This document shows, piece by piece, positions 1 to 64,000 of a stretch of 64,000 bases of DNA. The stretch's first letter is position 1. Each line of letters begins with the position of its first letter. The DNA is from Panorpa germanica. Lineage: Eukaryota > Arthropoda > Insecta > Mecoptera > Panorpidae. The position numbers were made by a program, and so were the translations under genes. The notes under the pieces were generated by a model. The model was not told the DNA's origin, searched no databases, and saw nothing but the letters and a program-made list of their open reading frames with translations. The DNA is taken from positions 1 to 64,000 of the forward strand of contig CAVMBN010000124.1 of NCBI GenBank assembly GCA_963678705.1. The letters run 5' to 3'.

Positions 1-925
1 CCAAGTGACCTTCAAAGAATTAGACCGGCAAAAACCTATAGGTACGTCTACTGCGCTATGGAGAACTATTTTCATTGTCGAACATTATTTTACAAACCGA
101 TTACCGTTCCATGAAAAGGCAACTATCTAAAGGTTGTCCTCAGCGATCTGTAATGGGGCCTGAGCTCTGGAACATGGTATTCGACGAGAACTGTGTTTCT
201 CACTCGAAAGGTTGTGTAGGCATATGTTTTGCCAACGATAATGTGATCCTTATCGGTGCAAATAGTACAGAAACCCTAGAAAGCCGTTCTCGACCTTATG
301 TATATAAAATCTGTAGTTTCTTGAAGCTACAAAGCTACGAGACAAATACAGTAACAACGAATGATAAACTTGTAACACACCTTGCGCGTGTCACAAGGAC
401 GGAATGAAGCTTAAACTCGGCAACTATGCCGACACTATACTAGGGGGCATTTATGCTAATAGTTGTGTATTGTGCTTCGGCATGGTATTACAGGATCAAT
501 CTTCCAGATCTTCCATGCAAAGAACTATGTTATTGACGATGACGCGTTGTTGCAGAACTGTATCTACAGAAGTGGTGCAAGTGATTTTGGGGACAATTCC
601 TTTAGATTTAAAAATCACTCATGCACTTACTCAAGTACAAATTACGCTAGAACTGAAAAAATCAAATTTTGATGATTTAAAATTAATGCGACAAATTTCG
701 AGGATTTAAAGTTAATGCGGCTGTAGGATAAAAGTCTGGAGACGATACCAAATATATTGCCAAAGAGATGAATGCATATATGCATAAGCTCTGGCAAGAC
801 AGATGGGACTTAATACAAAAAGAAAGACCTACGTATTGGTTTACAAGGACGTTAATATTGCTTTGCAACACAAGTGGTTCCTATCTACTATGTGTGTGAT
901 CGGCTCCTGCTACTTTAGGTGAAAA
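1..925 (+). pseudogene. R1-clade LINE ORF2 relic inside the satellite monomer
   Basis: Pieces of an R1-type reverse transcriptase can be read in order across several frames. Around 37-108 is a stretch like the segment before RT motif 4. At 111-407 comes KGCPQRSVMGPELWNMVF (family form GCPQGSVxGPxLWN), followed by CFANDNVILI where the family has FADD. Around 445-495 another frame reads MLIVVYCASAWYYR. At 515-640 comes QRTMLLTMTRCCRTVSTEVV, the usual R1 segment after the RT. A short frame at 768-899 contains WQDRWDLIQKERPTYWF, matching the R1 C-terminal WQxRWD and GRxTY motifs. The catalytic Asp pair is altered to Asn-Asp and at least three frame changes are needed, so it cannot encode an active RT. 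The same relic recurs in every full-length monomer. Clade assignment is from motif memory, not a search. Confidence 0.8.
772..785. repeat. Perfect 14-bp palindrome ATGCATATATGCAT
   Basis: ATGCATATATGCAT is identical to its own reverse complement. It lies inside the LINE relic and is kept in nearly all monomers; the copy at about 7120 has one change. A protein-binding role is possible but not shown. Confidence 0.75.
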
Positions 926-978
926 AAGTGATTAAAAGTGAGAAATTAATTATGGAAAAAAATTAAATAAATTATATG

Positions 979-1003
979 AATACTTTTTCAAACGAAAAGT
1001 ATT
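979..1003. repeat. Inverted repeat, 9-bp perfect stem with 7-nt loop
   Basis: AATACTTTT and AAAAGTATT flank a TCAAACG loop. The stem is perfect in most monomers. It has changed (AACACTTTT / AAAAGTTTT) in the subfamily associated with the short monomers. The two LINEs of the window join the satellite only 5 bp upstream of this hairpin (offset 974/975). Confidence 0.75.
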
Positions 1004-1100
1004 TAAGTTTGATTTAAATTTGTGTTAATTTACCCTAAACAAAGTGTTTTTACAAAAGTTTGACAGTTGAAAACCAGTGTTAAAAACGAATTTTTCATTA

Positions 1101-1112
1101 CGCGTACACGCG
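1101..1112. repeat. Inverted repeat CGCGT-AC-ACGCG
   Basis: A GC-rich 5-bp stem with a 2-base centre stands out in an otherwise AT-rich monomer half. It is kept in most copies. The copies at about 21132, 23877 and 35660 carry CGCGTACTCGCG, which breaks one pair. Confidence 0.6.
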
Positions 1113-1202
1113 GTCTTATAACCATAACCTCAAATTTGTAACTTTGATGTTTGATATAAGACTTTAATAAGTGCGATAGACAAAAAAAGTGATAATAATT
1201 AA

Positions 1203-1400
1203 GTTAGTGTTAGTGCTAAAACATCAAGTGGTTTAAAATTCAAGAAATCTGTAGAGATATTTAAGGAAGACCTCATAAAAACACTACAAATATACGGAAG
1301 ACAAAAGGTTGCCGCCCACTATCAAGTAAGTCGAATAACATTAACTATAAATAATATTAAAACACAAGAATTAGTTTATATAAATGCGTGTTTTAAATAA
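1203..1400 (+). pseudogene. Short helix-turn-helix-like relic frame in monomer 1
   Basis: An open frame of 65 codons without an ATG lies between TAA at 1200 and TAA at 1398. It contains KKSVEIFKEDLIKTLQIYG followed by RQKVAAHYQVSRITL. The second part has the spacing and residue pattern of a helix-turn-helix (AA, then VSRxTL) as in psq-type or transposase N-terminal domains. It is open in monomers 1 and 3, while most other copies carry TATATAA-type changes that give an in-frame TAA after EDLI. It may be a captured exon or transposase fragment. The family is not identified and the resemblance could be chance. Confidence 0.35.
1326..1331 (+). other. 5' splice-donor-like site CAA|GTAAGT
   Basis: GTAAGT follows the helix-turn-helix-like frame, in the context TATCAAGTAAGTCG. 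It matches the eukaryotic donor consensus and is kept in nearly all monomers. The frame also continues through it, so it may be coincidental. Confidence 0.3.
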
Positions 1401-1475
1401 TAATGAGAGTGTATTAATTGTTATAAGTAATTAAGTGAACAATATATGCGGTTTTCTTGGAAATAGTGATTGATC

Positions 1476-1485
1476 GTTCATGAAC
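1476..1485. repeat. Palindrome GTTCATGAAC
   Basis: A perfect 10-bp palindrome present in most monomers. In the short-monomer subfamily it is changed to GTTCATGATC, which creates an ATGATCAT palindrome instead. Confidence 0.6.
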
Positions 1486-1507
1486 ATTCAATAGTAACAA
1501 ACAAATG

Positions 1508-1513
1508 GTAAGT
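1508..1513 (+). other. Second 5' splice-donor-like site ATG|GTAAGT
   Basis: AAATGGTAAGTAAGTAGG contains two overlapping GTAAGT-type donors about 75 bp before the monomer boundary. No matching acceptor or transcript can be shown from sequence alone. Confidence 0.25.
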
Positions 1514-1586
1514 AAGTAGGCATAAGTACAAGTATGTATATGAGATATTTATAGAAATTCAGTGTGCCTTTGTTGATGTCAAGTGG

Positions 1587-3172
1587 CCAAGTGACCTTCA
1601 AAGAATTAGACCGGCAAAAACCTATAGGTACGTCTACTGCGCTATGGAGAACTATTTTCATTGTCGAACATTATTTTACAAACCGATTACCGTTCCATGA
1701 AAAGGCAACTATCTAAAGGTTGTCCTCAGCGATCTGTAATGGGGCCTGAGCTCTGGAACATGGTATTCGACGAGAACTGTGTTTCTCACTCGAAAGGTTG
1801 TGTAGGCATATGTTTTGCCAACGATAATGTGATCCTTATCGGTGCAAATAGTACAGAAACCCTAGAAAGCCGTTCACGACCTTATGTATATAAAATCTGT
1901 AGTTTCTTGAAGCTACAAAGCTACGAGACAAATACAGTAACAACGAATGATAAACTTGTAACACACCTTGCGCGTGTCACAAGGACGGAATGAAGCTTAA
2001 ACTCGGCAACTATGCCGACACTATACAAGGGGGCATTTATGCTAATAGTTGTGTATTGTGCTTCGGCATGGTATTACAGGATCAATCTTCCAGATCTTCC
2101 ATGCAAAGAACTATGTTATTGACGATGACGCGTTGTTGCAGAACTGTATCTACAGAAGTGGTGCAAGTGATATTGGGGACAATTCCTTTAGATTTAAAAA
2201 TCACTCATGCACTTACTCAAGTACAAATTACGCTAGAACTGAAAAAATTAAATTTTGATGATTTAAAATTAATGCGACAAATTTCGAGGATTTAAAGTTA
2301 ATGCGGCTGTAGGATAAAAGTCTGGAGACGATACCAAATATATTGCCAAAGAGATGAATGCATATATGCATAAGCTCTGGCAAGACAGATGGGACTTAAT
2401 ACAAAAAGGAAGACCTACGTAATAGTTTACAAGAACGTTAATATTGCTGTGCAACACAAGTTGTTCCTATCTACTATGTGTGTGATCGGCTCCTGCTACT
2501 TTAGGTGAAAAAAGTGATTAAAAGTAGGAAATTAATTATGGAAAAAAATTAAATAAATTATATGAATACTTTTTCAAACGAAAAGTATTTAAGTTTGTTT
2601 TAAATTTGTGTTAATTTACCCTAAACAAAGTGTTTTTACAAAAGTTTGACAGTTGGAAACCAGTGTTAAAAACGAATTTTTCATTACGCGTACACGCGGT
2701 CTTATAAACATAACATCAAATTTGTAACTTTGATGTTTGATATAAGACATAAATAAGTGCGATAGACAAAAAAAGTGATAATAATTAGGTTAGTGTTAGT
2801 GCTAAAACATCAAGTGGTTTAAAATTCAAGAAATCTGTAGAGATATATAAGGAAGACCTCATATAAACACTACAAATATACGGAAGACAAAAGGTTGCCG
2901 CCCACTATCAAGTAAGTCGAATAACATTAACTATAAATAATATTAAAACACAAGAATTAGTTTATATAAATGCGTGTTTTAAATAATAATGAAAGTGTAT
3001 TAATTGTTATAAGTGAATAAGTGAACAATATATGCGGTTTTCTTTGAAATAGTGATTGATCGTTCATGAACATTCAATGGTAACAAACAAATGGTAAGTA
3101 AGTAGGCATAAGTACAAGTATGTATATGAGATATTTATAGAAATTCAGTGTGCCTTTGTTGATGTCCGGTGG
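1587..3172 (+). repeat. Satellite monomer 2 (1586 bp)
   Basis: This is the partner of monomer 1 in an alternating dimer: it ends GATGTCCGGTGG and has CAATGGTAAC where monomers 1 and 3 have CAATAGTAAC. Its helix-turn-helix-like frame is closed by TAA. It shares the GTAGGCATATG variant with monomers 1, 3 and 4. Confidence 0.95.
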
Positions 3173-4758
3173 CCAAGTGACCTTCAAAGAATTAGACCGG
3201 CAAAAACCTATAGGTACGTCTACTGCGCTATAAAGAACTATTTTCATTGTCGAACATTATTTTACAAACCGATTACCGTTCCATGAAAAGGCAACTATCT
3301 AAAGGTTGTCCTCAGCGATCTGTAATGGGGCCTGAGCTCTGGAACATGGTATTCGACGAGAACTGTGTTTCTCACTCGAAAGGTTGTGTAGGCATATGTT
3401 TTGCCAACAATAATGTGATTCTTATCGGTGCAAATAGTACAGAAACCCTAGAAAGCCGTTCTCGACCTTCTGTATATAAAATCTGTAGTTTCTTGAAGCT
3501 ACAAAGCTACGAGACAAATACAGTTACAACGAATGATAAACTTGTAACACACCTTGCGCGTGTCACAAGGACGGAATGAAGCTTAAACTCGGCAACTATG
3601 CCGACACTATACAAGGGGGCATTTATGCTAATAGTTGTGTATTGTGCTTCGGCATGGTATTACAGGATCAATCTTCCAGATCTTCCATGCAAAGAACTAT
3701 GTTATTAACGATGACGCGTTGTTGCAGAACTGTATCTACAGAAGTGGTGCAAGTGATATTGGGGACAATTCCTTTAGATTTAAAAATCACTCATGCACTT
3801 ACTCAAGTACAAATTACGCTAGAACTGAAAAAATCAAATTTTGATGATTTAAAATTAATGCGACAAATTTCGAGGATTTAAAGTTAATGCGGCTGTAGGA
3901 TAAAAGTCTGGAGACGATACCAAATATATTGCCAAAGAGATGAATGCATATATGCATAAGCTCTTGCAAGACAGAGGGGACTTAATACAAAAAGAAAGAC
4001 CTACGTATTGGTTTACAAGGACGGTAATATTGCTTTGCAACACAAGTGGTTCCTATCTACTATGTGTGTGATCGGCTCCTGCTACTTTAGGTGAAAAAAG
4101 TGATTAAAAGTGAGAAATTTATTATGGAAAAAAATTAAATAAATTATATGAATACTTTTTCAAACGAAAAGTATTTAAGTTTGTTTTAAATTTGTGTTAA
4201 TTTACCCTAAACAAAGTGTTTTTACAAAAGTTTGACAGTTGAAAACCAGTGTTAAAAACGAATTTTTCATTACGCGTACACGCGGTCTTATAACAATAAC
4301 CTCAAATTTGTAACTTTGATGTTTGATATAAGACTTTAATAAGTGCGATAGACAAAAAAAGTGATAATAATTAGGTTAGTGTTAGTGCTAAAACATCAAG
4401 TGGTTTAAAATTCAAGAAATCTGTAGAGATATTTAAGGAAGACCTCATAAAAACACTACAAATATACGGAAGACAAAAGGTTGCCGCCCACTATCAAGTA
4501 AGTCGAATAACATTAACTATAAATAATATTAAAACACAAGAATTAGTTTATATAAATGCGTGTTTTAAATAATAATGAGAGTGTATTAATTGTTATAAGT
4601 GATTAAGTGAACAATATATGCGGTTTTCTTGGAAATAGTGATTGATCGTTCATGAACATTCAATAGTAACAAACAAATGGTAAGTAAGTAGGCATAAGTA
4701 CAAGTATGTATATGAGATATTTATAGAAAATCAGTGTGCCTTTATTGATGTCAAGTGG
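3173..4758 (+). repeat. Satellite monomer 3 (1586 bp)
   Basis: This is closest by eye to monomer 1: it shares the AAGTGG end, the CATAAAAACAC variant and the CAATAGTAAC variant. Private changes include CAACAATAATG in the RT half, which makes the altered catalytic box read FANN. Confidence 0.95.
4375..4572 (+). pseudogene. Helix-turn-helix-like relic frame in monomer 3
   Basis: This is the second copy of the 65-codon ATG-less frame that is still open; the preceding stop is TAG at 4372. It has the same RQKVAAHYQVSRITL core. It supports monomers 1 and 3 sharing an ancestor that kept the frame, but does not by itself show selection. Confidence 0.35.
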
Positions 4759-6345
4759 CCAAGTGACCTTCAAAGAATTAGACCGGCAAAAACCTATAGG
4801 TACGTCTACTGCGCTATGGAGAACTATTTTCATTGTCGAACATTATTTTACAAACCGATTACCGTTCCATGAAAAGGCAACTATCTAAAGGTTGTCCTCA
4901 GCGATCTGTAATGGGGCCTGAGCTCTGGAACATGGTATTCGACGAGAACTGTGTTTCTCACTCGAAAGGTTGTGTAGGCATATGTTTTGCCAACGATAAT
5001 GTGATCCTTATCGGTGCAAATAGTACAGAAACCCTAGAAAGCCGTTCTCGACCTTATGTATATAAAATCTGTAGTTTCTTGAAGCTACAAAGCTACGAGA
5101 CAAATACAGTAACAACGAATGATAAACTTGTAACACACCTTGCGCGTGTCACAAGGACGGAATGAAGCTTAAACTCGGCAACTATGCCGACACTATACAA
5201 GGGGGCATTTATGCTAATAGTTGTGTATTGTGCTTCGGCATGGTATTACAGGATCAATCTTCCAGATCTTCCATGCAAAGAACTATGTTATTGACGATGA
5301 CGCGTTGTTGCAGAACTGTATCTACAGAAGTGGTGCAAGTGATTTTGGGGACAATTCCTTTAGATTTAAAAATCACTCATGCACTTACTCAAGTACAAAT
5401 TACGCTAGAACTGAAAAAATCAAATTTTGATGATTTAAAATTAATGCGACAAATTTCGAGGATTTAAAGTTAATGCGGCTGTAGGATAAAAGTCTGGAGA
5501 CGATACCAAATATATTGCCAAAGAGATGAATGCATATATGCATAAGCTCTTGCAAGACAGATGGGACTTAATACAAAAAGAAAGACCTACGTATTGGTTA
5601 ACAAGGACGTCAATATTGCTTTGCAACACAAGTGGTTCCTATCTACTATGTGTGTGATCGGCTCCTGCTACTTTAGGTGAAAAAAGTGATTAAAAGTGAG
5701 AAATTAATTATGGAAAAAAATTAAATAAATTATATGAATACTTTTTCAAACGAAAAGTATTTAAGTTTGTTTTAAATTTGTGTTAATTTACCCTAAACAA
5801 AGTGTTTTTACAAAAGTTTGACAGTTGAAAACCAGTGTTAAAAACGAATTTTTCATTACGCGTACACGCGGTCTTATAACAATAACCTCAAATTTGTAAC
5901 TTTGATGTTTGATATAAGACTTTAATAAGTGCGATAGACAAAAAAAAGTGATAATAATTAGGTTAGTGTTAGTGCTAAAACATCAAGTGGTTTAAAATTC
6001 AAGAAATCTGTAGAGATATATAAGGAAGACCTCATATAAACACTACAAATATACGGAAGACAAAAGGTTGCCGCCCACTATCAAGTAAGTCGAATAACAT
6101 TAACTATAAATAATATTAAAACACAAGAATTAGTTTATATAAATGCGTGTTTTAAATAATAATGAGAGTGTATTAATTGTTATAAGTGATTAAGTGAACA
6201 ATATATGCGGTTTTCTTGGAAATAGTGATTGATCGTTCATGAACATTCAATGGTAACAAACAAATGGTAAGTAAGTAAGCATAAGTACAAGTATGTATAT
6301 GAGATATTTATAGAAATTCAGTGTGCCTTTGTTGATGTCCGGTGG
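4759..6345 (+). repeat. Satellite monomer 4 (1587 bp)
   Basis: It has one extra A in the GACAAAAAAAGTG run at about 5938. Like monomer 2, it has the closed helix-turn-helix-like frame and the CCGGTGG end. It is the last monomer with the GTAGGCATATG variant. Confidence 0.95.
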
Positions 6346-7931
6346 CCAAGTGACCTTCAAAGAATTAGACCGGCAAAAACCTATAGGTACGTCTACTGCG
6401 CTATGGAGAACTATTTTTATTGTAGAACATTATTTTACAAACCGATTACCGTTCCATGAAAAGGCAACTATCTAAAGGTTGTCCTCAGCGATCTGTAATG
6501 GGGCCTGAGCTCTGGAACATGGTATTCGACGAGAACTGTGTTTCTCACTCGAAAGGTTGTGTAGACATATGTTTTGCCAACGATAATGTGATCCTTATCG
6601 GTGCAAATAGTACAGAAACCTTAGAAAGCCGTTCTCGACCTGCTATATATAAAATCTGTAGTTTCTTGAAGCTACAAAGCTACGAAACAAATACAGTAAC
6701 AACGAATGATAAATTTGTAACACACCTTGCGCGTGTCACAAGGACGGAATGAAGCTTAAACTCGGCAACTATGCCGACACTATACAAGGATGCATTTATG
6801 CTAATAGTTGTGTATTGTGCTTCGGCATGGTATTACAGGATCAATCTTCCATATCTTCCATGCAAAGAACTATGTTATTGACGATGACGCGTTGTTGCAG
6901 AACTGTATCTACAGAAGTGGTGCAAGTGATATTGGGGACAATTCCTTTAGATTTAAAAATCACTCATGCACTTACTCAAGCACAAATTACGCTAGAACTG
7001 AAAAAATCAAATTTTGATGATTTAAAATTAATGCGACAAATTTCGAGGATTTAAAGTTAATGCGGCTGTAGGATAAATGTCTGGAGACGATACCAAATAT
7101 ATTGCCAAAGAGATGAATGCATAGATGCATAAGCTCTGGCAAGACAGATAGGACTTAATACAAAAAGGAAGACCTACGTATTGGTTTACAAGGACGTTAA
7201 TATTGCTTTGCAACACAAGTGGTTCCTATCTACTATGTGTGTGATCGGCTCCTGCTACTTTAGGTGAAAAAAGTGATTAAAAGTGAGAAATTAATTTTGG
7301 AAAAAAATTAAATAAATTATATGAATACTTTTTCAAACGAAAAGTATTTAAGTTTGTTTTAAATTTGTGGTAATTTACCCTAAACAAAGTGTTTTTACAA
7401 AAGTTTTACAGTTGGAAACCAGTGTTAAAAACGAATTTTTTATTACGCGTACACGCGGTCTTATAAACATAACCTCAAATTTGTAACTTTGATGTTTGAT
7501 ATAAGACATTAATAAGTGCGATAGACAAAATAAGTGATAATAATTAGGTTAGTGTTAGTGCTAAAACATCAAGTGGTTTAAAATTCAAGAAATCTGTAGA
7601 GATATATAAGGAAGACCTCATATAAACACTACAAATATACGGAAGGCAAAAAGTTGCCGCCCACTATCAAGTAAGTCGAATAACATTAACTATAAATAAT
7701 ATTAAAACACAAGAATTAGTTAATATAAATGCGTGTTTTAAATAATAATGAGAGTGTATTAATTGTTATAAATGATTAAGTGAACAATATATGCGGTTTT
7801 CTTGGAAATAGTGATTGATCGTTCATGAACATTCAATGGTAACAAACAAATGGTAAGTAAGTAGGCATAAGTACAAGTATGTATATGAGATATTTATAGA
7901 AATTTAGTGTGCCTTTGTTGATGTCCGGTGG
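6346..7931 (+). repeat. Satellite monomer 5 (1586 bp)
   Basis: The first copy with GTAGACATATG and CCTGCTATATAT in the RT relic, the variant used by the rest of the array. The 14-bp palindrome is mutated here (ATGCATAGATGCAT). Confidence 0.95.
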
Positions 7932-9515
7932 CCAAGTGACCTTCAAAGAATTAGACCGGCAAAAACCTATAGGTACGTCTACTGCGCTATGGAGAACTAT
8001 TTACATTGTCGAACATTATTTTACAAACCGATTATTGTTCCATGAAAAGGCAACTATCTAAAGGTTGTCCTCAGCGATCTGTAATGGGGCCTGAGCTCTG
8101 GAACATGGTATTCGACGAGAACTGTGTTTCTCACTCGAAAGGTTGTGTAGACATATGTTTTGCCAACGATAATGTGATCCTTATCGGTGCAAATAGTACA
8201 GAAACCCTAGAAAGCCGTTCTCGACCTGCTATATATAAAATCTGTAGTTTCTTGAAGCTACAAAGCTACGAAACAAATACAGTAACAACGAATGATAAAC
8301 TTGTAACACACCTTGCGCGTGTCACAAGGACGGAATGAAGCTTAAACTCGGCAACTATGCCGACACTATACAAGGGGGCATTTATGCTAATAGTTGTGTA
8401 TTGTGCTTCGGCATGGTATTAGGATCAATCTTCCAGATCTTCCATGCAAAGAACCATGTTATTGACGATGACGCGTTGTTGCAGAACTGTATCTACAGAA
8501 GTGGTGCAAGTGATATTGGGGACAATTCCTTTAGATTTAAAAATCACTCATGCACTTACTCAAGTACAAATTACGCTAGAACTAAAAAAATCAAATTTTA
8601 ATTATTTAAAATTAATGCGACAAATTTCGAGGATTTAAAGTTAATGCGGCTGTAGGATAAAAGTCTGGAGACGATACCAAATATATTGCCAAAGAGATGA
8701 ATGCATATATGCATAAGCTCTGACAAGACAGATGGGACTTAATACAAAAAGGAAGACCTACGTATTGGTTTACAAGGACGTTAATATTGCTTTGCAACAC
8801 AAGTGGTTCCTATCTACTATGTGTGTGATCGGCTCCTGCTACTTTAGGTGAAAAAAGTGATTAAAAGTGAGAAATTAATTATGGAAAAAAAATAAATAAA
8901 TTATATGAATACTTTTTCAAACGAAAAGTATTTAAGTATGTTTTAAATTTGTGTTAATTTACCCTAAACAAAGTGTTTTTACAAAAGTTTGACAGTTGGA
9001 AACCAGTGTTAAAAACGAATTTTTCATTACGCGTACACGCGGTCTTATAAACATACCCTCAAATTTGTAACTTTGATGTTTGATATAAGACATTAATAAG
9101 TGCGATAGACAAAAAAAGTGATAATAATTAGGTTAGTGTTAGTGCTAAAACATCAAGTGGTTTAAAATTCAAGAAATCTGTAGAGATATATAAGGAAGAC
9201 CTCATATAAACACTTCAAATATACGGAAGACAAAAGGTTGCCGCCCACTATCAAGTAAGTCGAATAACATTAACTATAAATAATATTAAAACACAAGAAT
9301 TAGTTTATATAAATGCGTGTTTTAAATAATAATGAGAGTGTATTAATTGTTATAAGTGATTAAGTGAACAATATATGCGGTTTTCTTGGAAATAGTGATT
9401 GATCGTTCATGAACATTCAATGGTAACAAACAAATGGTAAGTAAGTAGGCATAAGTACAAGTATGTATATGAGATATTTATAGAAATTCAGTGTGCCTTT
9501 GTTGATGTCCGGTGG
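7932..9515 (+). repeat. Satellite monomer 6 (1584 bp)
   Basis: Net length is 2 bp short of standard. ATTACAGG is reduced to ATTAGG near 8430, which shifts the reading frames of the LINE relic relative to its neighbours. Confidence 0.95.
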
Positions 9516-10883: not shown

Positions 10884-10897
10884 CGTCGCAAGCGACG
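10884..10897. other. Helitron 3' subterminal hairpin (outermost copy)
   Basis: CGTCGC-AA-GCGACG forms a 6-bp stem, 14 nt from the CTAG end on the minus strand. Such hairpins are considered the Helitron termination signal. Identical copies are at 12363-12376 and 13843-13856. Confidence 0.8.
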
Positions 10898-11557
10898 TCT
10901 GTCTTTTGTGTATGGCTTTAATTTTATGTTAAATTTAAGTTCCATTTTAAAATTCAAATATTTAACTTGTTCTATATAAATTTTACATACAAAAATAAAT
11001 AATTTTTCATATAAACTGACAAAGAAAATATATTTTTTTTAACAAAATAAAAAATATTTTCAATTTATGCGTTAATTGACCAACTTTTTTTCAAAATTTG
11101 GGAATTTTTTTTTCGATTCGTAAATTAGGTACCAAAGTTAGCATACATAAAAAATTTCAACTTTGTAGCACAATTTTTACTCTCGGCAAATACTGCCCCC
11201 GTGCCCCCAAATAAAATTTTGAAATTTTGAATTTTCTTTTATTAATAATATACTTAATTATTCTAGAACCCAGAATATGAACTTTCTCCAACGTTCCTTA
11301 CCGGGCCCCCGAATTTCTTCAACCCCCCACTTTTCAATTTTTGAATTTCTAATTTTTGAGATATGTCAGCATTGAATACCTTAATACACATGCAAAATTT
11401 CAACTTTCTATCTTTTACGAATTAAAAGTAATACAACAGAAAAGGCCCACTTTTTTTCCAGTTTTTCCAAAATTACGGGTTTCCAGGAAATTCAAGGAAA
11501 AATCCGGGGACGCCAAAAGTCTTAGAATTTTTTTCTCTTTAAAGTCTCTTTTAAAGT

Positions 11558-51489: not shown

Positions 51490-51503
51490 AAAAACAAAAT
51501 AAT

Positions 51504-51809: not shown

Positions 51810-51896
51810 CGAAATTATAAATATAAAATAATACAGCAGCATACATATTAGAGGATCAGATAAAAATATAATTTCTAAGTAGCGTTTATTTGTTAA

Positions 51897-54800
51897 AAAG
51901 TTCTTGTAGAAATTGATATTTTCCACAACAAAATTAAAGAAGTAAATATTATACAGTGGAACGGACAGAGCATTAGACACAAAAAAGACGATCTACAAAA
52001 TTTATTAAAAACGCAAAATATTCATATAGCTTTGATTTCAGAAACATTTTTGGGAGAAAATATAAATTTTAATATAAGAGGATATAATTTAGAAAGGGAT
52101 GATAGAATACAAATTGGAAGAACAAATCCTCATGGATGTACAGCCATTATTATACATAAAAGTATAAGATATAAAAGATTACATATTACTAAACCAGTAA
52201 ACAATATGGAACTCACTGCAATTAGTACAAAATTAAATAATATTGAAATATGTATTACATCAATATACGTTCCTCCAGGACACAAAATTGACAGTATAAA
52301 ATGGAAACAAATGTACAGACAAATTAAATTACCAGTGATACTAACGGGAGATTTTAATTCACTTCATCCATCATGGAATATAAACAACTTAATAAATTAC
52401 GAAGGACAAGAATTGAATAAATTTATTGATGAAGAATTTCTTCATATAGCTAACAATGATTGTCCTACAAGAGTACACCATCCTTATAGAAGAGATAGTA
52501 TCTTGGATTTAACCCTTATTAATCCTAGAATAATGCACATGTTAATAGACTGGAAGGTATTAAATGACAGCATGGGGAGTGATCATTATCCCATACTTTT
52601 TAATTTAACAAATTCAAATAATGTTGACATAGGTAGAACAAGGAATTATATCACTAGAAGAAATTTCAAAAAAGCTGACTGGAATGAATATCAAAATATT
52701 ATATCCAATAAACTCGATAATGGTTCAAATTTATATATCAGCTATGAGCATTTAATTAATACCATGAATGAGTCAGCGGAGGAAAGTATTCCATGCACTA
52801 AAATTTATAATAAGGACCCAAAACATGAAAAACCCCTATGGTGGGACAGCAATTGTAATAAAATGGTTGCTAAAAGAAGATTAGCTTTAACTAAATTTAA
52901 TAGAAATTCTAATATGGAAAATTATCTAAATTTTAAAAAGGAACAAGCAAACACACAAAAGTATTTTAGGATAAGAAGGAAGGAGGAATACAAGAAATTT
53001 TGTGAAAATATTAAGCCAAAAACTCCAGCTAAATTAATTTGGGGAGTAGTGCATAAATTATCAAGACCGAATATAAATCAGAACACCAGAAGTATGAATA
53101 ATGATTGGATTGAAGAGTTTGCTAGAAATTATTGTGGTAACTACAATATCATTTCAAGGCCGTATATTCAAAATTTTAAAGTAGTAGAATTTTTAGATAA
53201 ATCAATAGAGTTAGAAGAATTAAATTACAGTTTAAATCATAACAAGAAAACAAGTACTGGTATTGACAGAATCTCATATGAAATGATCCAAAACTTACCT
53301 AAAAGCGCCAAAATTGCCCTAATTAACAATTTTAATAATATATTTAATACCAGAATAATTCCTAGTGATTGGAAAAATCATATTATTGTCCCTATTTTAA
53401 AATCTGGAAAGAATCCTGAAGTAGCATCATCATATCGACCAATTACTTTAATATCATGCGTAGCCAAAACAATGGAAAATATTTTGAAAAACAGATTAGA
53501 ATGGTATTTAGAACACAACAATAAATTACCAGATTCGCAATTTGGATTTAGAAAAAATCGAAGTGTGCATGACAGCTTAAATATATTCAATCTGGACATT
53601 CAAAAAACGTACAGCTCTAATAAATACATGCTAGCTGTGTTCTTAGATATTAAGGGAGCTTATGATGCAGTTACATATCCTAACCTACAACTGAAATTAA
53701 GAGAAATTGGAATAACCAGCAAAATTACAAATTGGTTAATGTCATATTTTGAATTGAGATCCATTTATGTAAGAAATGAAGAAAATTTAATAGGACCATT
53801 TACCTGCAATAAAGGCCTACCTCAAGGATCTATTCTTAGTCCACTTTTATACACAATATATTCTAAAGACATTTCTAAATTAAAAGACGATCACACATTT
53901 ATTTTAGCATTTGCAGATGATATTGTTTTATATAGTATTGGCCCATCCATAGAATGTTTAAGGAAGAGAATTAACAAGAAATTATGCAAATTAAGAGATA
54001 TATTAGACAAAATTGAATTAGAAATCTCAGTAGAAAAATCTCAAGCTGTCATTTTTACTAGACACAAAATTATATCAAGTCCGAGGATAATATATAATAA
54101 CAAAAATATTATTATATCAAATAGAGCAAAATTTTTAGGTATTTGGTTTGATTGTAAATCTACTTGGAGCTTCGAAATTGATAAAATTATACTTACATGC
54201 AACAGAGGAATAAATGTTTTAAGAAGTCTAGCAGGAAGTAAATGGGGAGCTCATCCTATTTCTTTACTACAAATTTATCAAGCAATTATAAGTTCACATT
54301 TAGACTATTCAAGTATATTAATTAGTACAGCTTCCAAATCAAGATTATTAAAATTGGATAGAATACAATACAGAAGCTTAAGAATCGCTTTAGGTTGCAT
54401 GACTTCAACTCCAACTCATATACTTCAAGCTGAATCTAATATAGCTCCATTACAATTTAGAAACCAACTGCTTAGTGATAAATTTTATGTTAAATGTGAA
54501 ACATTATCGAAATTCCAAATTATTGATAAAATTAAATTATTAACTACATATATTCAAAACTCTTCTTACTGGATCAAAAAGAATAAACCTATTTTAATAA
54601 ATAGTTACATGAAATTAAAGGATCTAAATCTACAAAGAAATTCGAAATCGCCTATATACTCTATTCCTTTTGAATCATTAATTAAACCTATGGATATATT
54701 ATATATTATATTAACACAAAATTATTGTCAATATCTTTTAATAATGCGATAAATAATGAAAATTTTTTAAATATAATGCATCAATTTAATATAAATTTTA

Positions 54801-55660
54801 CAAAAATAATATATACAGATGCATCCATTGATTAAGAAAGAAATAAAGCAGGATTTGCTATATATGAACAGATAAATTTAAGATATTATAAATATAAATT
54901 AAATAACAAAGTTTGCTCTTACACTGGAGAAAAATTAGCATTATTAAAAGCATTGGAAATTAATGAAAATATCAACAATAATAAAATTATAATAATAACG
55001 GATTCTTTAAGTGTTTTAAAAAATTTAAATTCAAATGATAACAAATCAAATAATAATATTTTAACATGCAAAATTAAGAAGATGTATTTCAATATAATAA
55101 ATAGGAATAATACCATAAAATTTATGTGGATACCAGGACACTGTGGAATAAGAGGAAACGAAATTGCGGATAAATTAGCAAAGGAATCAATAAATTTGGA
55201 AATTGAGATGAGAGTGAAATTACCTTCATATGAAATTTTTAATATAATCAAAAAATTTTACTTCAATTTAAGAAACACAGATTTCATTAACAAAAGTCAG
55301 TTAAAAGGAAGAGATTATTATATGTTGCATCCAAATTTAAGTAAGAAGAGATGGTTTAGAAATGAGTCCCGCAAAATTATATCAACTATAATCAGAATCA
55401 AAAGTAATCATTGCAAAACTCCAGCTCATCTGTACAAAATTAATATTAAATCTGACGATAGATGTCAATGTGGTGAAGAAGGATATTTGGATCATATTAT
55501 ATTTGAATGCATAAATTATAGTTTAGAAAGATCAAAATTGAATAGTGGTATATTAGATGTGATTAAAACTTTTCCTGTTAATACTAAATTTTTGTTAAGT
55601 GATACAAAATTAATTAGTGAATTATTGAAATATTTAGAAATGTATAAAATTGAATTATAA
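51897..55660 (+). pseudogene. LINE 1 ORF2: endonuclease, RT, RNase H (frameshift and stop)
   Basis: The coding frame is open from just after TAA 51894-51896 to 54752. It has no ATG where LINE 2 begins (IIQWNGQS here, MINFIQWNC there). From a TTG at 52032, the APE-type endonuclease shows the catalytic Glu in ISETF, GDFN at about 106-109, DSILDL at 155-160 and SDH at 183-185. The RT shows SYRPITLIS, FLDIKGAYD, GLPQGSILSPLL and FADD at about 627. After the stop at 54750-54752 the homology continues in another frame. RNase H follows there (TDAS, an in-frame TAA at 54833-54835, ITDSLS, WIPGHCGIRGNEIADKLAKE), then a CQCGEEGYLDHIIFEC zinc-knuckle-like tail. RNase H plus endonuclease fits the I superfamily rather than Jockey or R1. 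It is inactive. Confidence 0.87.
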
Positions 55661-55736
55661 ATTATAAAAGATGTTAAAAAATTATTTGATGGTGGCTATG
55701 ACTAAAGAAAGTCAAGACAAAGAAGAAAATAAATAT

Positions 55737-55748
55737 AAAAAAAAAAAA
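55737..55748 (+). other. Poly-A tail of LINE 1
   Basis: A run of 12 A follows AAATAT and is joined directly to the satellite at CATATG (monomer offset 221). It marks the 3' end of the retrotransposon. Confidence 0.8.
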
Positions 55749-57114
55749 CATATGTTTTGCCAACGATAATGTGATCCTTATCGGTGCAAATAGTACAGAA
55801 ACCCTAGAAAGCCGTTCTCGACCTGCTATTTATAAAATCTGTAGTTTCTTGAAGCTACAAAGCTACGAAACAAATACAGTAACAACGAATGATAAACTTG
55901 TAACACACCTTGCGCGTGTCACAAGGACGGAATGAAGCTTAAACTCGGCAACTACGCCGACACTATACAAGGGGGCATTTATGCTAATAGTTGTGTATTG
56001 TGCTTCGGCATGGTATTACAGGATCAATCTTCCAGATCTTCCATGCAAAGAACTATGTTATTGACGATGACGCGTTGTTGCAGAACTGTATCTACAGAAG
56101 TGGTGCAAGTGATATTGGGTACAATTCCTTTAGATTTAAAAATCACTCATGCACTTACTCAAGTACAAATTACGCTAGAACTGAAAAAATCAAATTTTGA
56201 TGATTTAAAATTAATGCGACAAATTTCGAGGATTTAAAGGTAATGCGGATGTAGGATAAAAGTCAGGAGACGATACCAAATATATTGCCAAAGAGATGAA
56301 TGCATATATGCATAAGCTCTGGCAAGACAGATGGGACTTAATACAAAAAGGAAGACCTACGTATTGGTTTACAAGGACGTTAATATTGCTTTGCAACACA
56401 AGTGGTTCCTATCTACTATGTGTGTGATCGGCTCCTGCTACTTTAGGTGAAAAAAGTGATTAAAAGTGAGAAATTAATTATGGAAAAAAATTAAATAAAT
56501 TTTATAAATACTTTTTCAAACGAAAAGTATTTAAGTTTGTTTTAAATTTGTGTTAATTTACCCTAAACAAAATGTTTTTACAAAAGTTTGACAGTTGGAA
56601 ACCAGTGTTAAAAACGAATTTTTCATTACGCGTACACGCGGTCTTATAAACATAACCTCAAATTTGTAACTTTGATGTTTGATATAATACATTAATAAGT
56701 GCGATAGACAAAAAAAGTGATAATAATTAGGTTAGTGTTAGTGCTAAAACATCAAGTGGTTTAAAATTCAAGAAATCTGTAGAGATATATAAGGAAGACC
56801 TCATATAAACACTACAAATATACGGAAGACAAAAGGTTGCCGCCCACTATCAAGTAAGTCGAATAACATTAACTATAAATAATATTAAAACACAAGAATT
56901 AGTTTATATAAATGCGTGTTTTAAATAATAATGAGAGTGTATTAATTGTTATAAGTGATTAAGTGAACAATATATGCGGTTTTCTTGGAAATAGTGATTG
57001 ATCGTTCATGAACATTCAATGGTAACAAACAAATGGTAAGTAAGTAGGCATAAGTACAGGTATGTATATAAGATATTTATAGAAATTCAGTGTGCCTTTG
57101 TTGATCTCCGGTGG
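55749..57114 (+). repeat. Satellite monomer 31 (first 220 bp missing)
   Basis: It resumes at offset 221 directly after the poly-A of LINE 1. It matches 42453-43818 at a constant offset of 13296 bp, with shared GCGGATGTAGG and GTCAGGAGACG. Confidence 0.93.
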
Positions 57115-58088: not shown

Positions 58089-58106
58089 TTTTTTTTTTTT
58101 TTTTTT
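58089..58106 (-). other. Poly-A tail of LINE 2 (poly-T on plus strand)
   Basis: 18 consecutive T sit immediately inside the left target duplication. Just inside, read on the minus strand, is AAGGCTGAATAAGCC, which can form a small hairpin near the 3' end and may be part of the 3' recognition signal. Confidence 0.85.
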
Positions 58107-58278
58107 ATTTATTTAGGCTTTGGCTTATTCAGCCTTCTTGCCATTGCTTTTATTTGTAAAATTATATAAAAATTTACATATAAATTATAATTGTTCTAAT
58201 AAATACAAAAAAAAATGATTCTTTTAAAAAATTAAACTTAAAATTAAATACATACTAAATAAAATATTTTAACTTAAA
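58107..58278 (-). other. LINE 2 3' untranslated region
   Basis: AT-rich sequence between the ORF2 stop and the poly-A tail. Apart from the GGCTGAATAAGCC inverted repeat near its end I see no feature. Confidence 0.6.
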
Positions 58279-61200
58279 TTACACTTCTATATTATTTTCT
58301 ATCACAAAGTTTGTTAATATTTCCGCCGTTGCTTCACTTGTCATTAAACAGGACATATTGACTGGGAACTGTGTTACATTACATAAATCATTTAAAAGTC
58401 TATCAATTTTTGATGTTAAAAGATGACACCCTAGAATTATATGGTCCAAAGACCCTTCTTCTCCACATCTACAATTTGGTGTGTCTTTTATATTTATTTT
58501 GTATAGATGAGCTGGACATCTAGAATGCCCAGATTTCATTCGACAATTTGTTGAAATATATCTCCGTGAATGATTTTTATTAAACCATGTGGTTGTTGGA
58601 ATTTTTTGATTCGCTGCAAAAAAATTTTTTCCAGTACTTTGACTTTTCTCATTATATATATTCTGCCATTCTGCCATACAATTTTCTTTAATTATTTTTT
58701 TGGAATCATTTATTGACCAATCTATTTCAATTATTTCCCCATCTACACAAGCTTCTTTGGCCAGTTTGTCAGCCATTTCGTTTCCTTTTATGCCTACATG
58801 TCCAGGAATCCAAATAAGTTTAACATTGATATCATTTTTTTCCATTTTTAAAAGATATTCTTTAATTGAACATATTTTGTTATTATTATTGATTTTGAAT
58901 TTATTGTTATTTAAAGATACACAAACACTACGAGAATCTGTGAAGATTAATATATTTTTATTGTCAGTTTTTTGTATTATTTCTAGTAATTTCATAATTG
59001 CTGTTATTTCTGTATTATAAGAATTTGTGATGTTGTTAAGTTTGTATTTGTACTGCTGATCTGTATTATAATTGAAAATGCCAATTCCTCCAGTTTTAGA
59101 GTTTTTTTCGAATGAACCATCGGTAAACCATATACTCCAGTTTATATCATCTTTTGTTATATATTCCATATATTTTTGATAAGTTATTTCCTTACTGTCA
59201 TTCTTCTTGAACAAATTTATTTCTGTATGTATTGTTGTCATGCTTATTTCTAATGGAAATTTGAAAAAAGGTATAATGTTGTGTACCTCTAAGTTCAAGT
59301 TATTATATCTATCAAAACTAGTTAAAAGTGCCGGTTTTTTATGAGTTGTCCAATATGGTTTATTATAAAGAACATATAGTTTAGATAATCTTGTATTTAA
59401 GGGGCCACATGAGTTATGTCTGTTTTTACAAAAGAAACTGTCTGATATTTGTTGTATTCTGATATTTACCGGAGGAATATTAGTTTGATAGTTGAGGATT
59501 TGGATTGGTGTTGAAACCATTGCACCTAATATTATTCTTAAACATTTGTTTTGTATAATTTCAATTTTTTTTAATCTTGAGTTATTTGCGGTGCAGATCA
59601 TAGTACTAGAATAGTCAATATGCGGTCTAACAATAGCTTTATATATTTTTATTAAGGTTGTTGGGTGTGCGCCCCATTTGTATCCTGCTATACATCGCAT
59701 CAAATTTAAGCCTTTTTGACATTTGTTAATAATATGTGCAATTTCTTTCGCCCAAGTGCTTTTCGTATCAAAGAATATACCCAGAAATTTGGTATTTGAA
59801 GTAACAGTTATATTTTTATTTCTGATGGTTATTTTTGGACTGCAGTTTATTCTATGCCTTGTAAATATAACTATTTTACTTTTTTCTGATGATATATTTA
59901 ATTTGATTTCCTTTAATAAAATATCTAGTTTTCTTAATTTCGATTGTAATCTGTTTTGAGCTATATCTTGTGTATGACCCATACTATAAATAACCATGTC
60001 ATCTGCATACATCAGTACTGTTGTGTTGTTATCTGATAATGTTGTTAACTTTTCTGTGTATATGTTGAATAATAAGGGAGATAATATTGAGCCTTGTGGA
60101 ATTCCGTGATTACATAGTATAGGACCAGTTAACTTATTATTGTATCTAACTGTTATTTCTCTATTTTAGAAGTAGTTTATAATCCAGTTGGATATTTTGG
60201 AAGATATACCTATGTTTTCTACTTTTTTTTTTAATATTTTTAGATTAACATTGTCATAAGCAGCTTCAATGTCAATGAAAGCAGCTATCATATAATGATT
60301 TTTACTGTATGTTCTTTGAATATCGATATTCAATATGTTTAAGTTATGCTGTGTACTTCTTGTTTTTCTAAACGCAAATTGTAACTCAGGTAATCTTTTA
60401 TGATGTTCGAGATACCACTCCAGTCTGTTTTTGATGATGGATTCCATAGTTTTGCCCATACATGATAGTAAAGTAATTGGTCTGAATGATTCTTCTTTGT
60501 TTGGATCTTTTCCTGTTTTTAATATAGGAACAACGATATGTTTTTTCCAGTCTAATGGTATATCAGCAGTGTTTAATGACAGATTGTATATTTGTGTAAG
60601 ATGATTTATTGCATTGTCAGGTAAGTTTTGTATCATTTTGTAATTTATTCTATCAAATCCTGTGCTACTGTTTTTATTATGATTTAACGCGAATTTTACT
60701 TCATTTTTATTTATGTTATTATCTAGAAAATTATCTTTTACGATGGTGGTGGTAGTAATATTTAAATTGTTGTTCTGTGGAAATTTTTTTTTAATGAATT
60801 CTTCTATTAAATTTTCATTATCACTTATCCTTTTAGTACTATAGCTTTTATTGTTAATTTTTCTTATATTATTCCAGACAATGTTGGTTGTTGTGTTTGG
60901 GTTTAAATTCTCGCAGAAATTTTGCCATTCTATTTTTTTTCTGGCTCTAAAATATCGTCTGGTTTTAGCTTGATGTTTTTTATAATTTAAATAATTCGCC
61001 ATTGTCATGTTTTTATTAAAAATAGTTAGTGCTAATTTTCTTTGAGCTATCATTTTATTGCACTCAGTGTCCCACCAAGACGGTTTTATTTTATTAGGAG
61101 TTATATTATACAATCTGGTAGATGGGATATGTATGTCTGCCGAATTATTAATAACATCTCTAAATTGGTTGTATTTGTTTTCAACATCTTGGGGATTACT

Positions 61201-62007
61201 TGTGATTCCATTTGTGCTAAGGTTTGAAATTCTGCTTTCTATTTCAAGGCTATATTTCTCCCAATCTGCTTTTCGGAAATTTCTCCTCGTTAAATATTCA
61301 GATGTACGGTAACGGTCTTTATTATAGTCATTCAAACAGAAAAAAATTGGGTAGTGATCACTACCTAAGCTATCTGCAAGAACTTGCCACGAAGTAATTT
61401 GTTGTGTTAACGTCATTGATACCAATGTGAGATCCAATATACTGTCCCTTGTACTGAGATTGCTTACTCTAGTTGGTTTATTATCGTTGATAATATTTAG
61501 ATTTTCGTTTTCTATGAAATCTAACAATTCGTTACCTTCATACTGACTACCTGGACAATTTATATCCCAAGCAAGATTAGTCGCGTTAAAATCTCCAGCA
61601 AGTATAACAGGAACATCTATTTGTTGTTTTATCTGTGACCAATTAGAATTAGATAGTTTATGATTCGGTTTAGCATAGATTGATAAAATACATATTACAT
61701 CAGTTTCGTTATGTGTTAAAATTATTCCAACTATTTCGACCGAATTAAATGGGTTATTTAGCATTACTCGTTTATATTTTATAGATTTATGAATCAAGAT
61801 AGCAACACCCCCGTGGGGATTATAGTTTGTATTCTGTATCCTATCTTCTCTTTCAATAAAATAACCTTTGATGTTGAAATTGATATTTTTTGTTAAAAAC
61901 GTTTCTGATAGTATGCATATATGTATGTTATGCTTCTGTAACATATGTTGTAGTTCCTCTTTAATATATCTGACTCCTCTGCAATTCCATTGAATAAAAT
62001 TTATCAT
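58279..62007 (-). pseudogene. LINE 2 ORF2: endonuclease, RT, RNase H; single in-frame TAA
   Basis: It starts at ATG 62007 (MINFIQWNCRG). The first 613 residues hold the APE-type endonuclease (N8, E35, Y111, D139/N141, D188, S216-D217-H218) and the N-terminal part of the RT (PILKTGKDP 494-502, FRPITLLS 508-515, D579 in FIDIEAAYD). A TAA at 60166-60168 follows NYF. The same frame then continues with GIPQGSILSPLLF and MYADDMVIYS, where YADD is the RT catalytic box. RNase H comes next (FTDGS, E in YNTEIT, TDSRS, WIPGHVGIKGNEMADKLAKE), then a CRCGEEGSLDHIILGC tail, ending at 58279. The sister LINE has Glu (GAA) where this copy has TAA, so one G-to-T change explains the break. ORF2 would nick the target and reverse-transcribe the element RNA; this copy cannot make the full protein. 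Confidence 0.9.
60166..60168 (-). other. In-frame TAA in the RT domain of LINE 2
   Basis: The minus-strand codons are TAC TTC TAA AAT AGA with open frame on both sides. It separates the endonuclease and half of the RT from the catalytic YADD and RNase H. Confidence 0.9.
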
Positions 62008-62213
62008 TTTAACTGTTTTAATTAATTATTGATTTTTATATCTGTCCTTGGTCTTGTTGTTAGATTTATTTATATATTTTATTTTATTTTATTTTCTCTC
62101 CGTTTATATAATTATTGTTGATTTAATATTTTAGTAAATTTATTAAACGATTAGGTTTAGTGATGTGAATAGATTTTTTTAAAAATAAACTTAATTTATA
62201 TATCGATGTTTTC
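62008..62213 (-). other. LINE 2 ORF1-ORF2 gap
   Basis: 206 bp of very AT-rich sequence with a TAAAA-type run (AAAATAAAATAAAATA). ORF2 has its own ATG and does not overlap ORF1, so it is probably translated by reinitiation or a similar mechanism, as inferred for other two-ORF LINEs. Confidence 0.55.
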
Positions 62214-63641
62214 TTACGAGTTTGGCCATTGTACACTAGATATTTGTTTCTTGTAGCTTCTAAGGGATTGGGATGTAATATTTGGGTCTTTGTTTGTATT
62301 TTTAATTTTGTCATCATTATTTTTATTATATATTGATGTATAGCAGGTATCATTATCATTGTTTTCCATTGTAATATCAGGTGTCTCTTGGTTGATTTGC
62401 TTTCTGTTTTTTCCTTGATTAGTTATCTTAAGGTATGTGTCGCTTTCTTCATTGTTAGGTTTCTTTTCTTCTCTTCTTCTTTTTGGAATTGGTTCTTTAG
62501 TGGATGTCGTAGGTTGTGGTTGACTGTAAGATCTTTGTAACGAGTTACCTGTATTTGATTTATTCACTCTGGTATTAGTTCTTCTGGTTAAAGGGTTTGG
62601 TTTGTATGTTGGAATTATGTTGATACTATTGTATTTATTAGTGATATTGGGAAAAGTCTCATTGTAGTTTAGAGCTTCAAAAGAGTTTTGAGTTCTTACT
62701 GAGTATAAATAGTCTGTATTTTTTTCTGTTAATTCTAATTTTGCTTCATAAAAACTGAGATTGTGTTGGGCCATGAGATCTTTTATCTTGATTTGTCTTT
62801 TTTTTTCAGGACATTCATTGTCTGTAGCCTCGTGGTTAAGTTTACAATTTATGCATGTCGGATTAGGAGATGTGCATGCAGTACGTAAATGATCTTCACT
62901 TCCGCAGAATTTACATTTTGCTACTTTTGCTCTACATTTTGTGGCTGCATGTCCAAATTTAAAACAATTATAACATTGTATCGTCTGTTGTACAAATGGT
63001 TCACATGCTCGTCTCACTCTCCACATGTAAACATAAGCAGGAATAGCAAGTCCTTCAAAGAATAATTTCACTGTTGTACTGGGTTCATATTTAATAGCTC
63101 CGTCAACTCTTAGTTTTCGATTTAACCTTTGCACTCTCGTTACTTTAAAAGGTGGACACTCTATATTATTTAAAATTGTATCTTCCGAATATTCAATATC
63201 AACACCTTTTATAATAGCAACTTTTGTGCACCAGTAAAATGGGATAAACGCTTCATACCCATTGTTTTTCAGCAATGTTGATTTGGTAATTTCGTTAGCT
63301 AGTACTGCATTAGCACATTGAACGATTACTCTATTTCTTCCCACTTTTTTAATTTCTATTATATTAGATTTATTGCTAATTTTACATATTATTTCTGCTA
63401 ATTTAAGAGAACTAAAAAATGTATTTCCATCACTATTATTTTTAACTATCATTACTTTATACGAGTCATATTTTGTTTCTGTGTTGTATAAATTATTAAA
63501 TATTTTTTTAACATTGTCACTATTGTTATTTAAGTTTTCTGTTATATCACTGGATGTTTTATCTGTAGGAATTGATTTGTTAGTCACAGAGTTGTTTTTA
63601 TTGATCGGATTTTTATCGGGAGGTTCAACCTCCATATCCAT
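62214..63641 (-). CDS. LINE 2 ORF1, gag-like nucleic-acid-binding protein with three CCHC knuckles
   Basis: An intact 475-codon frame from ATG 63641. Residues 1-58 are polar and Asn-rich. Residues ~60-210 look like the RRM-like fold common in I- and Jockey-type ORF1 (YKVMIVKN, GRNRVIVQC). Three zinc knuckles follow: C223-C226-H231-C236, C243-C246-H251-C256 and C263-C266-H270-C277. The tail from ~335 is basic and low in complexity (PKRRREEKK). In relatives ORF1 coats the element RNA and accompanies it to the DNA as chaperone. It is the only undamaged protein-coding frame of appreciable length in the window. The ATG is the first in frame after the leader. I am confident of the class; the clade (I superfamily) is inferred together with ORF2. 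Confidence 0.88.
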   Translation of the reverse strand: MDMEVEPPDKNPINKNNSVTNKSIPTDKTSSDITENLNNNSDNVKKIFNNLYNTETKYDSYKVMIVKNNSDGNTFFSSLKLAEIICKISNKSNIIEIKKVGRNRVIVQCANAVLANEITKSTLLKNNGYEAFIPFYWCTKVAIIKGVDIEYSEDTILNNIECPPFKVTRVQRLNRKLRVDGAIKYEPSTTVKLFFEGLAIPAYVYMWRVRRACEPFVQQTIQCYNCFKFGHAATKCRAKVAKCKFCGSEDHLRTACTSPNPTCINCKLNHEATDNECPEKKRQIKIKDLMAQHNLSFYEAKLELTEKNTDYLYSVRTQNSFEALNYNETFPNITNKYNSINIIPTYKPNPLTRRTNTRVNKSNTGNSLQRSYSQPQPTTSTKEPIPKRRREEKKPNNEESDTYLKITNQGKNRKQINQETPDITMENNDNDTCYTSIYNKNNDDKIKNTNKDPNITSQSLRSYKKQISSVQWPNS

Positions 63642-63844
63642 ATTGTTAATTAACCAGTGATAATTAAATAGAAGTTACTTCACTTCTAATTAATAACACT
63701 TAATAATAATATAAATTATAATTTAAAAAAATTAAATCACGAAAAAAAAATATTATAATTTGCAAAAAAAAAAGATAACTATTTATTTTATTGTTTTGTT
63801 TATTGTAAATACGTGCGCTCACCAAGAAGACTCGATGTAAACTG
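63642..63844 (-). promoter_or_regulatory. LINE 2 5' leader, presumed internal promoter
   Basis: A 203-bp region from the element start to the ORF1 ATG. The first bases on the minus strand, CAGTTTACATCGAGTC, resemble the CAGT-type initiator at +1 of several insect LINEs. Promoter activity is inferred from position only. Confidence 0.45.
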
Positions 63845-63855
63845 TAAATAAATTA
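63845..63855. repeat. Target-site duplication TAAATAAATTA (right)
   Basis: Second copy of the 11-bp target, in register with the satellite, which continues with TATGAATACTTTTTC. Confidence 0.88.
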
Positions 63856-64000
63856 TATGAATACTTTTTCAAACGAAAAGTATTTAAGTTTGTTTTAAAT
63901 TTGTGTTAATTTACCCTAAACAAAGTGTTTTTACAAAAGTTTGACAGTTGAAAACCAGTGTTAAAAACGAATTTTTCATTACGCGTACACGCGGTCTTAT
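63845..64000 (+). repeat. Satellite monomer 32 resumed (incomplete at window edge)
   Basis: Standard spacer half from offset 964 onward, including the 9-bp stem hairpin and CGCGTACACGCG. It shows that the array continues beyond the window. Confidence 0.94.

Follow-up and report, generated by a model that had tools for sequence, protein, structure and literature searches.

A high-copy satellite of Panorpa germanica whose unit carries an internal ORF2 fragment of an R1-type retrotransposon

The window analyzed here, the 64,000 nucleotides at bases 1-64000 of contig C140 in the 464-Mb, 249-contig assembly of Panorpa germanica, is occupied mainly by a satellite whose unit joins a piece of an R1-type long interspersed nuclear element (LINE) to other DNA, and the array is interrupted by four insertions (Table 1). 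Autocorrelation of the window over all shifts from 20 to 11,999 gives 1586 as the top shift (value 0.532), and BLAST of the first monomer against the window returns 37 pieces, every one on the + strand, head to tail and with 96.3-100% identity, in agreement with the 1586-bp monomer named in a first-pass annotation of this DNA. That annotation let the satellite run from 1 to 64000, which is generous; the satellite does dominate, but it totals ~45,875 bp, and the insertions make up the remainder. The mean pairwise identity of 17 near-full monomers, hand-picked from the BLAST map, is 97.7% (range 96.5-100%). A 31-mer marker from the R1 half of the unit occurs 6,846 times genome-wide and one from the non-R1 half 6,782 times (reversed controls, 0 for both), counts that allow up to two mismatches and miss copies beyond that. 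With this identity and copy number, the sequence forms long, homogenized, high-copy arrays, and the view of it as a major satellite is upheld. More copies lie at 67.7-72.3 kb of the same 75-kb contig, beyond the window.

The array contains shortened as well as full units. Units of ~1160 bp lack consensus positions ~1566-407, and the three of their junctions that were read are near-identical and contain short filler, while units of 1535 bp lack 51 bp (consensus 1266-1316). Around 23-26 kb, a shift of 11,784 bp aligns the array with itself at ~99% identity, versus ~97.7% for typical unit pairs, which suggests a recent block duplication. The near-identical short-unit junctions and the high identity at this shift together indicate duplication within the array. 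Most units also carry a 29-bp tandem duplication in the R1-derived part, for which Tandem Repeats Finder (TRF) gives 29 rows of period 29, compared with 32 R1-half markers in the window.

The R1-derived part, which we take to be the reverse-transcriptase palm of open reading frame 2 (ORF2) from the motif A region onward (1512..2483 in the example unit), contains, in order, a KGCPQRS motif, FAND, a deletion of ~160 bp, CRTVSTEVVQV, and WQDRWDL...HKWF. All of the R1 ORF2 motifs listed in the first-pass annotation are located in the consensus in the order given there: KGCPQRSVMGPELWN, CFANDN, YCASAWYYR, CRTVSTEVVQV, and WQDRWDL/GRPTY. They had been described as all frameshifted, which holds in that stops and a change of frame are present, but only two frames are used and several motifs share one: KGCPQRSVMGPELWN, CFANDN, and YCASAWYYR use the first, in which a stop separates CFANDN from YCASAWYYR, CRTVSTEVVQV lies in a second frame, and WQDRWDL/GRPTY returns to the first frame past further stops. 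Tblastx of the monomer against L060, a LINE locus elsewhere in the genome, gives five collinear pieces with 47-69% amino acid identity per piece and E = 4.9e-90, and five collinear pieces are also found against a second locus, L067 (E = 1.4e-82). In the same comparison other LINE families, such as L043 and L051, are weaker (top E, 6.7e-49). The lowest E among 20 mononucleotide-shuffled monomers is 0.021, indicating that the R1 match is not due to chance. Of the 1586 bp, 929 are covered by the translated matches and 986 by the DNA alignment, or 59-62%; the description of the monomer as half R1 was therefore an underestimate, large though the R1 part is, and the ~660 bp assigned to other sequence fits the 600-657 bp that remain.

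Aligned as DNA, the monomer and L060 agree at 710 of 928 aligned bases (76.5%), with 267 gap positions, and the satellite lacks ~160 bases of L060 after FAND. FAND stands where the relatives have FADD, the catalytic motif, and the consensus also holds stops and a frameshift; the consensus thus cannot encode a working reverse transcriptase. Because the 5' part of ORF2 and its 3' end are both absent, the fragment is not an ordinary 5'-truncated insertion; the first-pass description of a truncated LINE was right about an incomplete R1, but the piece is internal to ORF2. With an internal ORF2 fragment only, and no ribosomal RNA (rRNA) recognized in the window by Rfam (0 matches at the gathering score, in line with the earlier report that no ribosomal DNA (rDNA) is visible there), the monomer is not an R1 element proper.

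The normal target of R1 is the 28S gene. The locus pair L074/L060 (G000 C5:8244300-8249166) reads from a poly(A) into TGTCCCTATCTACT, the 14-bp 28S target sequence, and then into the 5' end of a second R1, which starts directly after TGTCCCTATCTACT and has ORF1-like frames; the 28S-site evidence at this pair consists of these 14 bp, and our reading is confined to them. No 28S target sequence is found in the 7.7 kb examined at L067 (C6), indicating that copies of the family also sit away from the site. The endonuclease upstream of L067, searched with phmmer against PDB, has five matches at E ≤ 0.1, all to TRAS1 or R1 (1wdu, TRAS1, 2.1e-17; 2ei9, R1Bm, 4.6e-9; the last three chains are named R1). 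A 28S query has 40 scored matches among 63 candidates, and 11 of the 40 end at query base 87-90. We take the R1 target duplication to end at base 88 of this query, and R1 insertion at the usual place would produce matches ending at 87-90. To judge from these sequence features, the L060/L067 family behaves as R1. The 28S fragments themselves, some of which end at the R1 site, are spread on a megabase scale over C1, C2, C5, and C8, a much wider distribution than that of a compact rDNA array.

In a study of Drosophila, R1 is described as making 14-bp target duplications and as forming tandem copies with 14 bp of 28S sequence between them (PMC2718515), and in-place tandem R1 arrays in rDNA are known from the same source. 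The L074/L060 pair resembles these arrays in being split by a 14-bp 28S sequence. In-place arrays, as described there, come from repeated insertion at the 28S site, whereas the satellite consensus does not contain the full 14-bp sequence. A rival idea is that the array is a tandem series of an internally deleted, non-autonomous R1 derivative mobilized in trans by R1 rather than a passive satellite. A tandem R1 pair does exist in this genome, and R2 elements with internal deletions, as well as R2/R1 hybrids, are the subject of PMC3414825. The monomer, however, has neither an R1 3' untranslated region (UTR) nor a 5' end, its consensus holds 12 site bases but not all 14, and the window lacks an rRNA match, as noted above; we regard such a derivative as extremely improbable.

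Because of the copy number, searches of the genome with satellite letters recognized satellite places only. The source was therefore sought with KGCPQGS, an R1-style motif in whose place the typical satellite unit has KGCPQRS; it has 79 matches genome-wide (reversed control, 0), the first 30 of which, in contig order, were compared. Four of these 30 loci (L053-L056) are satellite variants that retain the G of KGCPQGS, and among the 26 non-satellite loci L060 and L067 are closest to the satellite. A tree of 20 rows was built. Alongside the satellite and both other window LINEs it contains 17 of the 26 non-satellite loci; L046, L049, L058, L059, L062, L064, L069, L071, and L072 were omitted beforehand, and the root was placed for drawing only. 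In this tree the satellite groups with L060 and L067 with a support of 99/100 and is separate from both other window LINEs. The R1-type origin proposed in the first-pass annotation is thus borne out by the translated match to L060, by the 28S target and TRAS1/R1 endonuclease matches of the parent family, and by the placement in a tree, for which LINEs of the same genome served as references; among the LINEs compared, the closest relative of the translated monomer is the R1 family L060/L067 and not another reverse-transcriptase family. Diverged variants of the satellite at L053 and L054 (C1, ~11.87 and ~11.95 Mb) and L076 (C10, ~0.40 Mb) are mostly ~95-96% identical to the consensus. All three include units that retain the G of KGCPQGS, as in the R1 relatives, and L053 and L054 each have one unit without consensus ~198-265.

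For the other ~0.6 kb of the unit, consensus 901-1512 was compared on both strands with five targets: the 3' UTR of the parent, the 5' end of the element that follows it, the ORF upstream, and, at L067, the 5' region and the region as a whole. Each of the 10 local alignments was set against 50 mononucleotide shuffles. Nothing is found in these five targets, as all 10 alignments score under the best of their own 50 shuffles, and there is no significant match in Pfam or PDB. One may suppose that the whole monomer is a single element derived from R1, in which case the ~0.6 kb would represent an R1 UTR or spacer that has diverged. The AT-richness of this part, its contact with the R1 fragment on both sides, and two weak matches to the L067 region in a lenient BLAST (E = 7e-4) are in favor of this; the BLAST matches were rejected, as their local scores lie within those of the shuffles, and with all 10 alignments below shuffled sequence we consider such an origin unlikely. 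Within the limit of two mismatches, the non-R1 marker shows no excess that would point to independent copies of this half (6,782 vs 6,846), and more diverged copies would be missed; the near-equal counts indicate that the two halves travel together. Diversity among the 17 monomers is also about equal, 2.4% in the R1 half and 2.1% in the non-R1 half, indicating that they are homogenized as one unit. A helix-turn-helix-like stretch in the non-R1 half, LKFKKSVEIFKEDLIKTLQIYGRQKVAAHYQVSR, was considered and rejected (nothing in Pfam at E ≤ 10, and only E ~1 in PDB); its final codons include GTAAGT, which resembles a splice donor. In the searches made, no gene or repeat accounts for the ~0.6-kb half.

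A 28S remnant could be taken as a sign that the monomer was born inside rDNA. At consensus 880-891, where the R1 similarity fades, the unit contains CCTATCTACTAT, identical to a 12-base stretch of the R1 target region in the 28S query. A 12-mer match to the ~40 site bases would arise by chance with a probability of ~0.01 by rough estimate, so that chance is possible without being a comfortable explanation. The ORF2 alignment, on the other hand, runs ungapped through CCTATCTACTAT, with GGTT before it and TGTGTGTGA/TGTATGTGA after it, and no additional 28S bases are seen adjoining it. Birth inside rDNA is in our judgment very unlikely. Variant L053 (~96% identity) carries the same bases as CCTATCTACTAT, which does not decide the question.

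The window has 32 R1-half markers, one for every 1,434 bp of satellite, and by extrapolation from this one window the 6,846 markers represent ~9.8 Mb, or 2.1% of the 464 Mb. The satellite is present on at least seven contigs larger than 17 Mb, and among the matches listed it appears at the places given in Table 1, a map of those matches from which neither block continuity nor absence from other contigs can be deduced. On C1, the orientation of the copies listed switches between 11.95 and 12.00 Mb. To judge from the contig positions, the satellite may plausibly be centromeric or pericentromeric. Clusters inside large contigs (C1, 11.8-14.7 of 30.6 Mb; C3, 17.7-18.0 of 27.8 Mb), together with many small contigs, are what brings up the further possibility that the satellite serves the species as its functional centromeric repeat. 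Copies are also listed elsewhere (C1, 8.81 Mb; C2, 5.02 Mb), and the argument is one of contig positions, so that we hold this role to be possible but doubtful. Slightly more doubtful still is the idea that most chromosomes have, as their centromeric satellite, an R1 piece linked to host DNA; if true, an rDNA parasite would have turned into centromere DNA.

Taken together, the results make it very probable that the satellite is a dead internal R1 ORF2 fragment of ~0.95 kb plus ~0.6 kb of other DNA, amplified in tandem. Several observations weigh against this interpretation. A closer relative is possible among the other 49 of the 79 KGCPQGS places; the satellite has a long branch in the tree (0.59), and the program flags the place of such a row as unsure; and the clade placement is based on LINEs of the same genome and PDB endonucleases only. 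In many units the R1 part contains an open stretch of 121 codons (it accounts for 19 of the 29 window ORFs of at least 120 amino acids), despite which the unit is presumably non-coding. A Pfam search of seven monomer translations gives zero families above the cut-off: RVT_1 stays under it with E = 0.13 (profile positions 110-164, in the first stretch of the monomer), and PAN_3, an unrelated family, does slightly better with E = 0.092, so that profile searches, taken by themselves, do not decide for or against the origin. Finally, the ~0.6-kb half matches nothing tested, and the founding event is therefore not reconstructable.

For a dead R1 fragment amplified together with other DNA, the following history may be proposed. 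A copy of an R1-type, 28S-targeting non-long terminal repeat (non-LTR) retrotransposon would have left an internal ORF2 fragment of ~0.95 kb beside ~0.6 kb of unrelated DNA, and the fragment would have decayed through a frameshift, stops, the loss of ~160 bp, and a change of the catalytic motif. Next, DNA-level processes (unequal exchange, conversion, or rolling-circle re-insertion) would have multiplied the chimeric 1.6-kb segment head to tail, an amplification to which the unit variants and the block duplication point. The outcome would be a satellite of ~6,800 units, amounting to ~2% of the genome on several chromosomes and homogenized by recombination between tandem copies, with a unit that is presumably not mobile and makes no reverse transcriptase. 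As the satellite and its probable source family both survive in one genome, it is possible to date and map where the unit came from, how it decayed prior to amplification, and how it spread. It is uncommon for a 28S-targeting R1 to end up as ~2% of the genome, distributed in blocks over many contigs.

That satellites can come from pieces of transposons, LINE ORF2 included, is established in print (PMC9659126); the first-pass claim of a clear case of a retrotransposon turned satellite is supported, but it adds to a known class, for which R1 is an uncommon source. LINE-derived examples are PROsat of Phodopus and Pvc20 of the harbor seal (both L1 ORF2), HinfI of chicken (CR1 with part of ORF2), and the common cetacean satellite (L1 3' end) (PMC9659126). 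They are similar in that a tandem unit is related to part of a LINE, from ORF2 in several of them, and different in that the source here is a 28S-targeting R1 and only ~60% of the unit is LINE. The 18HT satellite of the Drosophila melanogaster Y centromere (PMC9659126) is likewise an insect satellite from non-LTR retrotransposons, but it derives from the telomeric HeT-A and TART and is centromeric, whereas the present one derives from R1 and is known by its contig positions. In Drosophila simulans, an R1/R2 fusion forms a tandem array outside rDNA (PMC2718515), which also represents an R1-containing chimera amplified in tandem outside rDNA; that fusion joins an R1 5' end to an R2 3' end, while here internal R1 ORF2 is joined to other DNA and reaches ~2% of the genome. 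Arrays of retrotransposon-related sequences with units of 1.7-3.3 kb at scaffold termini are described in Bradysia coprophila (PMC12051294), again kilobase retrotransposon-related units arrayed in an insect genome; these are terminal telomere candidates, and R1 is not named as their source in the available text. Among the open-access titles and abstracts listed, we recognized no R1-derived satellite of this type, which is not to claim that none is in print.

Table 1. Positions of the satellite, of the parts of its unit, and of the insertions (in the window unless a contig is named)
Feature	Position	Strand	Description	Basis
Satellite segment	1..10869	+	Six 1584-1587 bp monomers, head to tail, and a partial seventh	BLAST map
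Satellite segment	15479..44440	+	Full monomers, ~1160-bp units, 1535-bp units	BLAST map and short-unit junctions; start 15479 read by eye (first BLAST piece there starts at 15460)
Satellite segment	47962..51489	+		BLAST map
Satellite segment	55749..58089	+		BLAST map
Satellite segment, restart	63845..64000	+		BLAST map
29-bp tandem duplication	663..719	+	In most units	TRF; additional bases relative to L060 in alignment
R1-derived part, example unit	1512..2483	+	Consensus 1512-1586, then 1-~897	tblastx to L060/L067; DNA alignment
Non-R1 part, example unit	901..1511	+	~600-657 bp, AT-rich	Similarity to R1 UTRs/ORFs not above shuffles
Satellite on C1	8.81 and 11.8-14.7 Mb of 30.6 Mb			Among matches listed
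Satellite on C2	5.02 of 29.1 Mb			Among matches listed
Satellite on C3	17.67-17.98 of 27.8 Mb			Among matches listed
Satellite on C6	18.49 of 24.5 Mb			Among matches listed
Satellite on C7	5.86 of 22.1 Mb			Among matches listed
Satellite on C10	0.40 of 17.8 Mb			Among matches listed
Satellite on C11	0.66-0.71 of 17.1 Mb			Among matches listed
Satellite on C15 and many small contigs			Present	Among matches listed
Insertion, Helitron-like ends	10870-15478	minus	~4.6 kb	Read by eye
Insertion, DNA-transposon-like	44440-47962		~3.5 kb; near-matching ends TAGACCAAGGTAGA / TAGACCAGGGTAGA	
LINE, RNase H-bearing	51489-55749	+		
LINE	58089-63845	minus	Zinc-knuckle-like first ORF, endonuclease, reverse transcriptase, RNase H	

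The four insertions differ in their ends. The Helitron-like one has a 5' TC, a hairpin GTCGCTTGCGAC, and a 3' CTAG, lies between a target A and T with no duplication, and by eye contains long internal direct repeats. The DNA-transposon-like insertion shows an apparent 3-bp target duplication, TCA, and its 466-amino-acid ORF (45442-46842, minus strand) has no Pfam match at E ≤ 0.01. The minus-strand LINE shows poly(T) at one end when read on the + strand, together with an apparent 12-bp duplication, TAAATAAATTAT, of satellite sequence, and its second ORF is broken by one in-frame stop. The flanks of the plus-strand LINE fall at monomer positions 974 and 221, indicating a target deletion or a later rearrangement.

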